A DNA stretch of 21,167 bases, from positions 1 to 21,167 of IMG/VR virus record IMGVR_UViG_3300001419_000071, one strand, 5' to 3'. Below the pieces are notes generated by a model. It had not been told where the DNA came from. It searched no databases and saw nothing but the letters and a program-made list of their open reading frames with translations. This DNA is from a virus. This document shows positions 4,012-5,638 of the stretch, in pieces. The position numbers were made by a program, and so were the translations under genes. Within the stretch, counting starts at the first letter, position 1. Each line of letters starts with the position of its first letter.

Positions 4012-4773
4012 TCAATAGTTGTCTTGTTGAAGATTTGGTAAAGCTTGGCCTTCAGGGCCAAGCTCTGGTTCTTCCTTCACATCGAAACTTACACCGTCAG
4101 TATCCTGCGACACGTCTTCGGCTTGCACGGGAAATGCTCCATCTCGCAAGTCTTCAGCTTTTTTTAATTCTTTCTCCTTGTCAATAGTTTTGGAAAGATC
4201 CTGCAGAAACTGGCGGTAGCTCTTATCTTGATTTTCCTCACGCTTCAATTCATGCAGTCCCAAGAGTTTTGCTTGCTCAACAAGAGAATTCTTTGCGACA
4301 TTCAAGAAACCATGATCGCCAGCGCTTTCTTCAATGCGAATGATGGTGCTTGATTTATCTGCATCGCCATCTTGAATGGTGGTCGTTTTCTTGCGCTTAC
4401 TCTCCTCAAACCCCTTCATCGCTTCTTCTTTCAAGTCCATTTGCTCTTTCAGCAGACGTGCCCTATGCACGTCTGCGGAGGCAAGCAGTTTTTCCGTGTA
4501 CAGCTCACGATTGTGATTCCTGTCAGCATTGACAGTTTCTTTTGAAAGCTTCAGGACATTCGCAATCTGTCGATTGCTCATTCTTGCGGCTAATAGCTCT
4601 TGCACCATATATCGCCGCAAGCCAAGCATATCCTTAGACAAGGCAATGCCTGGTTTGCATTTTGCTCGAATCTTTTCGATGTCCTCGGGAGAAAGTCCTG
4701 CCTCGAGCAGGACTTTCGTTCCATAGGCCAATTCCTGCTCGGAATCCTTAAATTCGATGTCAGGACGAGGCAT
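4012..4773 (-). CDS. HTH and coiled-coil protein, possibly small terminase subunit
   Basis: The 253-residue protein contains a helix-turn-helix at about residues 65-90 (MSNRQIANVLKLSKETVN). A long charged, coiled-coil-like region follows, then a segment NVAKNSLVEQAKLLGLHELK. An N-terminal HTH plus a late 'A...QAKLLGL' helix is common in phage small terminase subunits, which bind the packaging start. The C-terminus is acidic. The start overlaps the stop of the upstream gene by one base (TAATG), so translation is probably coupled. No large terminase gene follows in this window, so a transcription regulator or other DNA-binding role remains possible. A search against TerS profiles or a structure prediction would decide. 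Confidence 0.6.
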   Translation of the reverse strand: MPRPDIEFKDSEQELAYGTKVLLEAGLSPEDIEKIRAKCKPGIALSKDMLGLRRYMVQELLAARMSNRQIANVLKLSKETVNADRNHNRELYTEKLLASADVHRARLLKEQMDLKEEAMKGFEESKRKKTTTIQDGDADKSSTIIRIEESAGDHGFLNVAKNSLVEQAKLLGLHELKREENQDKSYRQFLQDLSKTIDKEKELKKAEDLRDGAFPVQAEDVSQDTDGVSFDVKEEPELGPEGQALPNLQQDNY

Positions 4774-5009
4774 TACTTTTCAGTTTTAATGTTTGCATTA
4801 AATTCATTATCTATAAGATCTTGAATTGCTTGCAGACTATTTCGCCAATGCCGTTCGCCTTGTGGGCTCACGGCACCGTACAGATAGCGCGGTGAGGGCT
4901 GAGGACCACGGGAAGGCCTAGAGAATCCGTGATGAATGCGACAGATAATTTCTACGCCATTGTGATCAATGGAAGGCAGCGCTTCTACGGGCTTGGGCGG
5001 CTTGAGCAT
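4773..5009 (-). CDS. Hypothetical protein, 78 residues
   Basis: The preferred start is the ATG at 5009 (GGCCATGC context); a TTG at 5015 would add two residues. The short protein begins with a Pro-rich stretch, followed by VEIICRIHHGFSRPSRG and SPRYLYGAVSPQGERHW, then a helical end (LQAIQDLIDNEFNANI). The layout suggests a small beta-hairpin plus helix fold. It is the first gene of the unit that contains the HTH/coiled-coil protein, and its stop overlaps that start by one base. A promoter at 5177-5205 and a structured leader of about 160 nt precede it. No family is recognised. Confidence 0.7.
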   Translation of the reverse strand: MLKPPKPVEALPSIDHNGVEIICRIHHGFSRPSRGPQPSPRYLYGAVSPQGERHWRNSLQAIQDLIDNEFNANIKTEK

Positions 5010-5170
5010 GGCCAATACTTATGACTGGCACATGATGGCAGATAATTTCTGCTTGGGCATGCTCGTACGCCGCCTTTGGGGCGGCTCCCTCGCCCAGACA
5101 GCGATGGGAAGGAACAGCCGCTCCTCGTCAAGATCGTCGAGTAACGAGCAAGCGAGGGCTAGCCGTCCCG
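5010..5170 (-). ncRNA. Candidate structured leader RNA
   Basis: This GC-rich stretch between the promoter at 5177-5205 and the start at 5009 would be transcribed as a leader of about 160 nt. Visible pairings are CCCTCGC (5087-5093) with GCGAGGG (5152-5158), which GGCT (5083-5086) with AGCC (5161-5164) extends after a 2-nt bulge. A GCCGCC/GGCGGC hairpin (5069-5074 with 5080-5085) shares bases with that extension, so the two helices compete. GCTCGT (5061-5066) can pair with ACGAGC (5144-5149), crossing the first helix as a pseudoknot. These features suit a cis-regulatory RNA, but no known riboswitch class is recognised. The plus-strand frame at 5008-5214 was judged spurious. Confidence 0.4.
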
Positions 5171-5176
5171 GTTTTG

Positions 5177-5205
5177 AGGGTAAAGGGGAGACTCACTTTT
5201 GTCAA
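5177..5205 (-). promoter_or_regulatory. Sigma70-like promoter, TTGACA-17-TACCCT
   Basis: On the minus strand a perfect -35 box TTGACA (5205-5200) is followed after 17 bp by TACCCT (5182-5177). It overlaps a perfect dyad, TTGTCA-n7-TGACAA (5199-5217), that could bind a repressor. It points toward the start at 5009 and would drive the unit 4773-5009, 4012-4773 and 3523-3966. Confidence 0.6.
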
Positions 5206-5292
5206 CCCTTATGACAATGCTGAGACTGCACTAAGGCCAGCAGACGCTGTAATCCGTTGCAGCGACTATGGGGAGGTCCATTTTTCCCTCGC

Positions 5293-5469
5293 ATGGAACC
5301 CTCCCCGACGCCCAAAATTACTCGCTTGCCTCGCAATGGTCCCAAGATGGGACAGTCCTATGAGCAGTGGGCCAGAGGCAAATCGATAGCGGACGGACGA
5401 TGGGAAGAGCGAAAGAAGCGCTATTCCTGGCGTCAAATGAAACGTCGCAATACGGAAAAAAGGGGCTAA
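5293..5469 (+). CDS. Small basic protein, 58 residues
   Basis: A plus-strand frame starts at the ATG at 5293 and ends at the TAA inside the loop of the terminator hairpin at 5457-5480. The protein has a Pro-rich start and a strongly basic C-terminal half (including WEERKKRYSWRQMKRRN), which suggests nucleic-acid binding. The frame is open further upstream to 5257, but the residues before this ATG look non-coding. No membrane segment or known family is seen. It is a lone plus-strand gene facing a minus-strand small gene. No strong promoter is obvious upstream, although the dyad at 5199-5217 lies about 75 bp away. Confidence 0.55.
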   Translation: MEPSPTPKITRLPRNGPKMGQSYEQWARGKSIADGRWEERKKRYSWRQMKRRNTEKRG

Positions 5470-5480
5470 GGCCCCTTTTT
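5457..5480. terminator. Bidirectional terminator between convergent small genes
   Basis: A perfect 10-bp stem (5457-5466 with 5471-5480) consists of five A/T and five G/C pairs with a TAAG loop. It has a T5 tract in both directions. The stop of the plus-strand gene lies in the loop, and the stop of the minus-strand gene overlaps the last base. It is a classic rho-independent terminator for both. Confidence 0.8.
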
Positions 5481-5638
5481 CATTCGCCAAATCCAGACGT
5501 TTTACGAGACCTTCTAACTCGCTTAGTTTTTGCTTCTTCCTGGATTTCGTCAACGATGGCTTCTTCTTCGGTCTTCTGCTTGTTGCCTTCTAAGGCAAGC
5601 CAAAGTGCATGCAAACCGGGATGGTGTTCAAAAGCCAT
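5480..5638 (-). CDS. Small charged protein, 52 residues
   Basis: The ATG at 5638 (TGTCATGG context) opens a 52-residue frame. The N-terminus (MAFEHHPGLHALWLALEG) is followed by an acidic helix (KTEEEAIVDEIQEEAK) and a basic tail (KTKRVRRSRKTSGFGE). A good promoter lies immediately upstream at 5654-5681, and the terminator at 5457-5480 begins at its stop codon. So it looks like a complete one-gene transcription unit. This charge pattern could suit a protein-binding or nucleic-acid-binding accessory factor; the family is unknown. Confidence 0.65.
   Translation of the reverse strand: MAFEHHPGLHALWLALEGNKQKTEEEAIVDEIQEEAKTKRVRRSRKTSGFGE

Follow-up and report, generated by a model that had tools for sequence, protein, structure and literature searches.

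A leader RNA before the small gene p80 in relatives of the cyanophage S-CBS4: a candidate cis-acting element with a predicted paired start codon

Does the stretch in front of the small phage gene p80 encode a regulatory RNA, and which of its possible helices would matter? It is located on the minus strand of a 21-kb virus record (the window, i.e. the whole analysed stretch of 21,167 nt) that is related to the Synechococcus siphovirus S-CBS4. Its neighbours are a gene at 5480-5638, which matches S-CBS4 gp083, and p80, which matches gp084 (Table 1). The original prediction had proposed a cis-regulatory RNA working by competing helices and a pseudoknot. Of the possible readings, that of a cis-regulatory leader RNA has the best support, which comes from a putative promoter conserved in position, a kept hairpin, a start codon predicted to be paired in most relatives and a module that covaries in distant relatives, but a mechanism based on competing helices and a pseudoknot is not supported. 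This means that a real regulatory-looking leader had been indicated, but the wrong structural features had been chosen. The more interesting part is found outside the coordinates given at first, namely the module that covaries in the relatives, together with its second locus.

Table 1. Features of the p80 leader region (window coordinates, unless a relative is named)
Feature	Position	Strand	Description
5' leader of p80	5010..5170	-	about 160 nt, between conserved promoter-like site and conserved p80 start
Promoter-like site	5177..5205	-	TTGACA 5205-5200, 17-nt spacer, TACCCT 5182-5177
Hairpin module	5061..5093	-	base GC/GC (5093-5092 with 5062-5061), purine-rich internal loop, stem, loop CCAAA
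Start-codon helix	5004..5064	-	GAGCATG 5064-5058 with CATGCTC 5010-5004; 5' strand overlaps module base
Alternative local start hairpin	5007..5034	-	CATG 5034-5031 and GCCAGT 5029-5024 with ATTGGCCATG 5016-5007
Long helix	5083..5164	-	GGCTAGCCCTCGC 5164-5152 complementary to GCGAGGGAGCC 5093-5083
Crossing helix	5061..5149	-	GCTCGT 5149-5144 complementary to ACGAGC 5066-5061
p80	4773..5009	-	78 aa, conserved phage protein, first gene 3' of the leader
Gene 3' of p80	4012..4773	-	253 aa, next in operon, matches PHROG 645 ('Rnase E')
Terminator-like hairpin	5456..5480	-	AAAAAGGGGC-CTTA-GCCCCTTTTT; read from the sequence, possibly active in both directions
Small opposite-strand gene	5293-5469	+	58 aa, KITRLPRNGPKMGQS..., diverges from p80 promoter
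Second module locus in relatives	L241:2979-3110	-	also in L193, L244, L212, L181, L192, L200, L211, L182

The terminator-like hairpin closes the upstream gene and parts it from the leader. Between both, the 58-aa frame on the opposite strand carries the motif K-[IV]-x-[KR]-LPRNGPK and is conserved: In L008, among others, its position and orientation are the same. Since these two features lie upstream, the p80 unit needs its own promoter. In some relatives, the opposite-strand gene adjoins the same leader. An antisense frame starting with MANTYDWHMMADNFCLG.. (5009-5214, plus strand) was rejected as a gene, because the longest open frames shift from relative to relative. No tRNA or tmRNA was found in a search of the window. 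Downstream of p80, the gene for the 253-aa protein is syntenic in nearly all relatives. By eye, this protein looks like a helix-turn-helix protein and resembles a small terminase subunit, whereas its PHROG carries the label 'Rnase E', which may be wrong.

The predicted promoter TTGACA-17-TACCCT is present, and a promoter-like site is located at the equivalent place in many relatives. About 15 distinct relatives carry TTGAYT-16/17-CCCTTTACCCT there; the sites in relatives were also summarised as TTGA-16/17-TACYCT. By consensus, the site is weak: Its -10 box agrees with TATAAT at only three of six positions, and a consensus promoter scan did not list 5177-5205. It is considered a candidate promoter of the p80 unit, from which transcription would start near 5170. 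In other relatives, the same downstream part is preceded by another promoter-like end, in which GGTNACGGAAAGTCCCG follows TANACT. With two different 5' ends preceding one module, these ends were apparently exchanged between phages, which points to recombination at the promoter and leader 5' end upstream of p80.

The 3' border of the leader is well defined. The start at 5009 had been chosen correctly, as protein conservation begins exactly at this Met, which is conserved in an alignment of 18 sequences. In S-CBS4 (HQ698895), gp084 is annotated at 61195-61473, and conservation begins at Met 61231. This annotation implies that p80 extends N-terminally across the start hairpin of S-CBS4, but such an extension was rejected: Single-base length changes before the Met in L014, L021, L052, L060, L062 and L067 break the frame. 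Consequently, this hairpin is non-coding and Met 61231 the likelier start, so that the annotated frame probably begins 36 nt too far upstream. The p80 protein itself has no match in Pfam, PHROGs or PDB sequences. AlphaFold2 predicts a beta-beta-beta-beta-alpha fold (pLDDT 84). The model has no fold match in the PDB at E<=0.001 and, therefore, yields no functional hint. In host genomes, one full-length match was found on a MAG contig (20,518 nt) that is evidently the phage sequence of L009; as far as searched, p80 appears to be phage-restricted.

Which structures does the leader contain? All three complementarities of the original prediction exist. In the predicted ensemble, however, they differ widely: The stem of the hairpin module (GCCGCC 5085-5080 with GGCGGC 5074-5069) has a probability of about 0.96, the long helix of about 0.001 and the crossing helix of about 0.03. 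Long helix and hairpin do share bases, but the overlap is limited to 3-4 bases (5086-5083), so that the main 7 bp of the long helix can coexist with the hairpin. Among relatives, an equivalent of the long helix is present in L008 only, and there it coexists with the hairpin, too. The pseudoknot is not a conserved feature: The crossing helix is confined to the window, and no 5' partner for it was found in relatives. When covariation in related phages was checked, the hairpin proved to be kept in the closest clade, but neither the long nor the crossing helix was, and no covariation reached significance in this clade. Nor was it confirmed that such a leader is unusual in a compact phage genome, as had been argued; gaps of 200-500 nt occur several times in S-CBS4. 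The leader folds better than its shuffled versions (z -4.5, none of 200 shuffles as good; z -5.1 in a second run). A z below -4 was also obtained for 13 of 228 contig tiles of the same size, one of which overlaps the leader, leaving 12 elsewhere. Therefore, folding strength alone is no argument.

A conserved hairpin emerges from the comparison with the closest relatives. This clade comprises eight sequences: the window, L003-L006, L008, L009 and L105. Common to all of them is a block of 98 nt that extends up to the p80 start, with a mean column identity of about 76%, and it is conserved outside any consistent reading frame. RNAalifold predicts for the clade exactly the GC/GC base, the purine-rich internal loop, the GC stem and the C-rich loop. 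All pairs of the hairpin are kept in 8/8 sequences and none varies, so that the clade neither supports nor contradicts the hairpin by covariation. A covariance model of the block (R2) yields confident matches in these eight sequences only, and the 66-kb genome of L008 contains a single element of this type.

S-CBS4 and most other relatives have a 66-nt module in the p80 leader. It consists of an outer helix UGGCC/GGCCA, an inner GC/GC, a 3x3 internal loop GNA/GGA, a stem and a C-rich loop ending with AA. It is often present in tandem and located close 3' of the promoter-like site in every leader. A covariance model (R1) built from the first copies only recovers the tandem second copies as well as a second locus. 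When 49 copies were aligned to R1, 94.7% of the cells were paired, 8 of 11 pairs had a compensatory change, and 43 doubly changed cells were counted compared to 10.2 +- 2.4 in shuffles; the alignment was fitted to the model, which favours covariation, and the copies are related. The window hairpin agrees with this module in layout, with GC pairs at the base, a purine internal loop, a GC stem and a C-rich loop that ends with AA, and it occupies the same place between promoter and p80. However, the outer helix is absent from the alignment of the window clade, the best R1 match in the window leader (9.3 bits, E about 1, rank 9) is not significant, and R1 does not match the L008 genome. Since the window scores below significance, it was not filed as a member of the module, and the likeness is one of layout and position. 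A search of Rfam 15 yielded no family in the window at the gathering threshold and, for 11 relatives, no relevant match at E<=1; the matches that leaders gave at E<=5 were far below the gathering thresholds and nothing among them was credible. Leader matches in named phages besides S-CBS4 were short chance matches only.

Most large genomes with tandem leaders contain the second module locus 13-16 kb away on the opposite strand. Its order is a TACGAT box, two modules, a terminator-like hairpin and an HNH gene on the same strand, and the locus appears to encode a stand-alone RNA of about 350 nt. In the stem at this locus, GCCC/GGGC is changed to GUUCC/GGAAC, with the flanks kept. The locus was detected neither in S-CBS4 nor in L116 nor in the window clade. 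Two alternatives have to be discussed here. The hairpin module might act at the level of transcription: Recognised right after the promoter by a phage factor or by RNA polymerase itself, it would make the polymerase ignore later terminators in a long operon, with start-codon pairing being secondary. In the phage HK022, put elements likewise occur twice, downstream of PL and of PR (PMC9378689), and both the proximity to a promoter-like site, often in tandem, and the recurrence of the module before a terminator-like hairpin at a second such site would fit. However, no terminator separates the leader module from p80, which follows directly, no second copy was seen in the clades of the window and of S-CBS4, and the recurrent pairing of the start codon would be left unexplained. 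We regard transcriptional control of this kind as unlikely. Alternatively, the leader might yield or mimic a trans-acting RNA, with the stand-alone copy and the leader binding the same protein and one serving as decoy for the other. The same genomes do hold the module both in the leader and at an RNA-like locus with promoter-like start and terminator. Against such a decoy speak the missing second locus in the window clade, S-CBS4 and L116 and the pairing between leader and stand-alone copy, which is not special: In a crude test with duplexfold, 9-34 of 100 shuffles were as good by count. We consider a role as decoy very unlikely.

The second recurrent property of the leader concerns the start codon. 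The start-codon helix of the window is part of the MFE structure of the leader's 3' half, whereas in the whole leader, the alternative local hairpin has a probability of about 0.9. By either route, the p80 AUG is paired with a probability of 0.997, compared to 0.60 in shuffles, of which 1/60 was as high. Start-codon pairing reaches at least 0.95 in 25 of 35 distinct relatives, with a mean of 0.85 versus 0.48 in shuffles, although the leaders of the large group are related and such counts are not independent. Within the window clade, it is at least 0.74 in 5/8 sequences, and the start codon is mostly open in L003, L004 and L105; L073 and L174 are further exceptions. The remaining 103 genes of S-CBS4 have a mean of 0.57, with only 9 of them above 0.95; equally well-paired start codons occur in about 5-9% of these genes. 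The sequences that form this pairing differ among the relatives, with GAGCAUG/CAUGCUC in the window, GAGCAUUCC/GGUAAUGCUU in L008, AUGCCGG/CCGGCAU in L006 and CAUUGCAGG/CCUGCAAUG in S-CBS4. This argues for selection on the pairing itself. Compensatory support is moderate for the start hairpin of the S-CBS4 group (CAUUGC..GCAAUG), which has 17 doubly changed cells versus 6.8 in shuffles and 12 in a slid control. In the start helix of the window clade, 87.5% of the cells are paired (n=8) and one pair is compensated, which is not above shuffles. From these predictions we infer that the start codon would really be hidden in the p80 mRNA.

Could the leader simply be an ordinary GC-rich 5' untranslated region, whose folds are by-products of composition and a conserved promoter? 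The window clade with its lack of significant covariation and the many equally stable stretches of the contig would be in agreement with this. However, composition explains neither a 98-nt block conserved without a consistent reading frame nor start-codon pairing far above shuffles across relatives nor the covariation in the wider group, so that this explanation is considered quite unlikely. It is highly improbable that the conserved hairpins act as DNA and belong to an origin of replication or a site of packaging next to the primase/helicase gene. Intergenic GC-rich inverted repeats adjoin the primase gene, and the cumulative GC skew of S-CBS4 reaches its peak about 1.7 kb from there, but this peak may only reflect gene orientation. 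Furthermore, a 3x3 internal loop with conserved GNA/GGA and covariation suit RNA, and the element is always located on the sense strand between the promoter-like site and a start codon that is itself paired.

We give about an even chance to the proposal that the region is the cis-acting leader of the p80 operon and regulates p80 at the level of translation, with its start codon being masked. According to this proposal, transcription from the unit's own promoter near 5170 would produce a leader that forms the conserved GC-rich hairpin module as its sensing or binding part. Its default fold would keep the p80 start codon base-paired and thus poorly accessible. An alternative fold would release it, e.g. 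upon binding of a protein to the hairpin module, by a ribosome or depending on the pace of folding during transcription. The comparison of the sequences points to mutually exclusive elements other than those proposed originally, namely the module base and the helix covering the start codon. As the base (5062-5061) overlaps the start helix (5064-5058 with 5010-5004), forming one would weaken the other, yielding a two-state model. The protein that binds the module might be p80 itself, which is small and conserved and would be a natural candidate for autoregulation. The calculations show the position of the leader, the conservation of promoter and hairpin, the predicted start-codon pairing and the covariation of the wider module; from these, we infer a putative switch, its trigger and its effect on expression. 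It is conceivable, if rather doubtful, that S-CBS4-like cyanophages use an undescribed system in which the covarying module, single or in tandem, in the p80 leader and the stand-alone RNA from the opposite strand share a binding factor that controls the phage programme. The window clade would then represent a diverged single-copy version.

Knowledge of gene control in cyanobacterial siphoviruses is scarce, and a leader RNA kept in front of a conserved phage gene provides a concrete handle on the timing of expression. The covarying module, which is absent from Rfam and used twice in many genomes, is a candidate RNA family for the annotation of cyanophages. Translational riboswitches and autoregulated phage leaders sequester the start site. 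The predicted structure of the p80 leader shares with them a helix over the start codon and a structured domain upstream, but differs from riboswitches in that no metabolic gene is associated with it. The manA, wcaG and PhotoRC-II RNAs are likewise candidate cis-regulatory RNAs in untranslated leaders of cyanophages; they are Rfam members in front of sugar or photosynthesis genes, with manA and wcaG found in T4-like cyanophages (PMC2864571). In contrast, the p80 leader has no Rfam match and belongs to a relative of the S-CBS4-like siphoviruses. For the put RNAs of HK022 (putL and putR), which act in antitermination and anti-pausing, no sequence relation to the p80 leader was seen, and the host of the p80 phages is a cyanobacterium. 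Like the leader module, the put RNAs are structured RNAs just 3' of phage promoters, and they occupy two places per genome, as do the R1 loci in part of the relatives, i.e. in the wider group only. Whereas put comprises about 70 nt with two stem-loops, here a module and a start-codon helix precede a single small gene.
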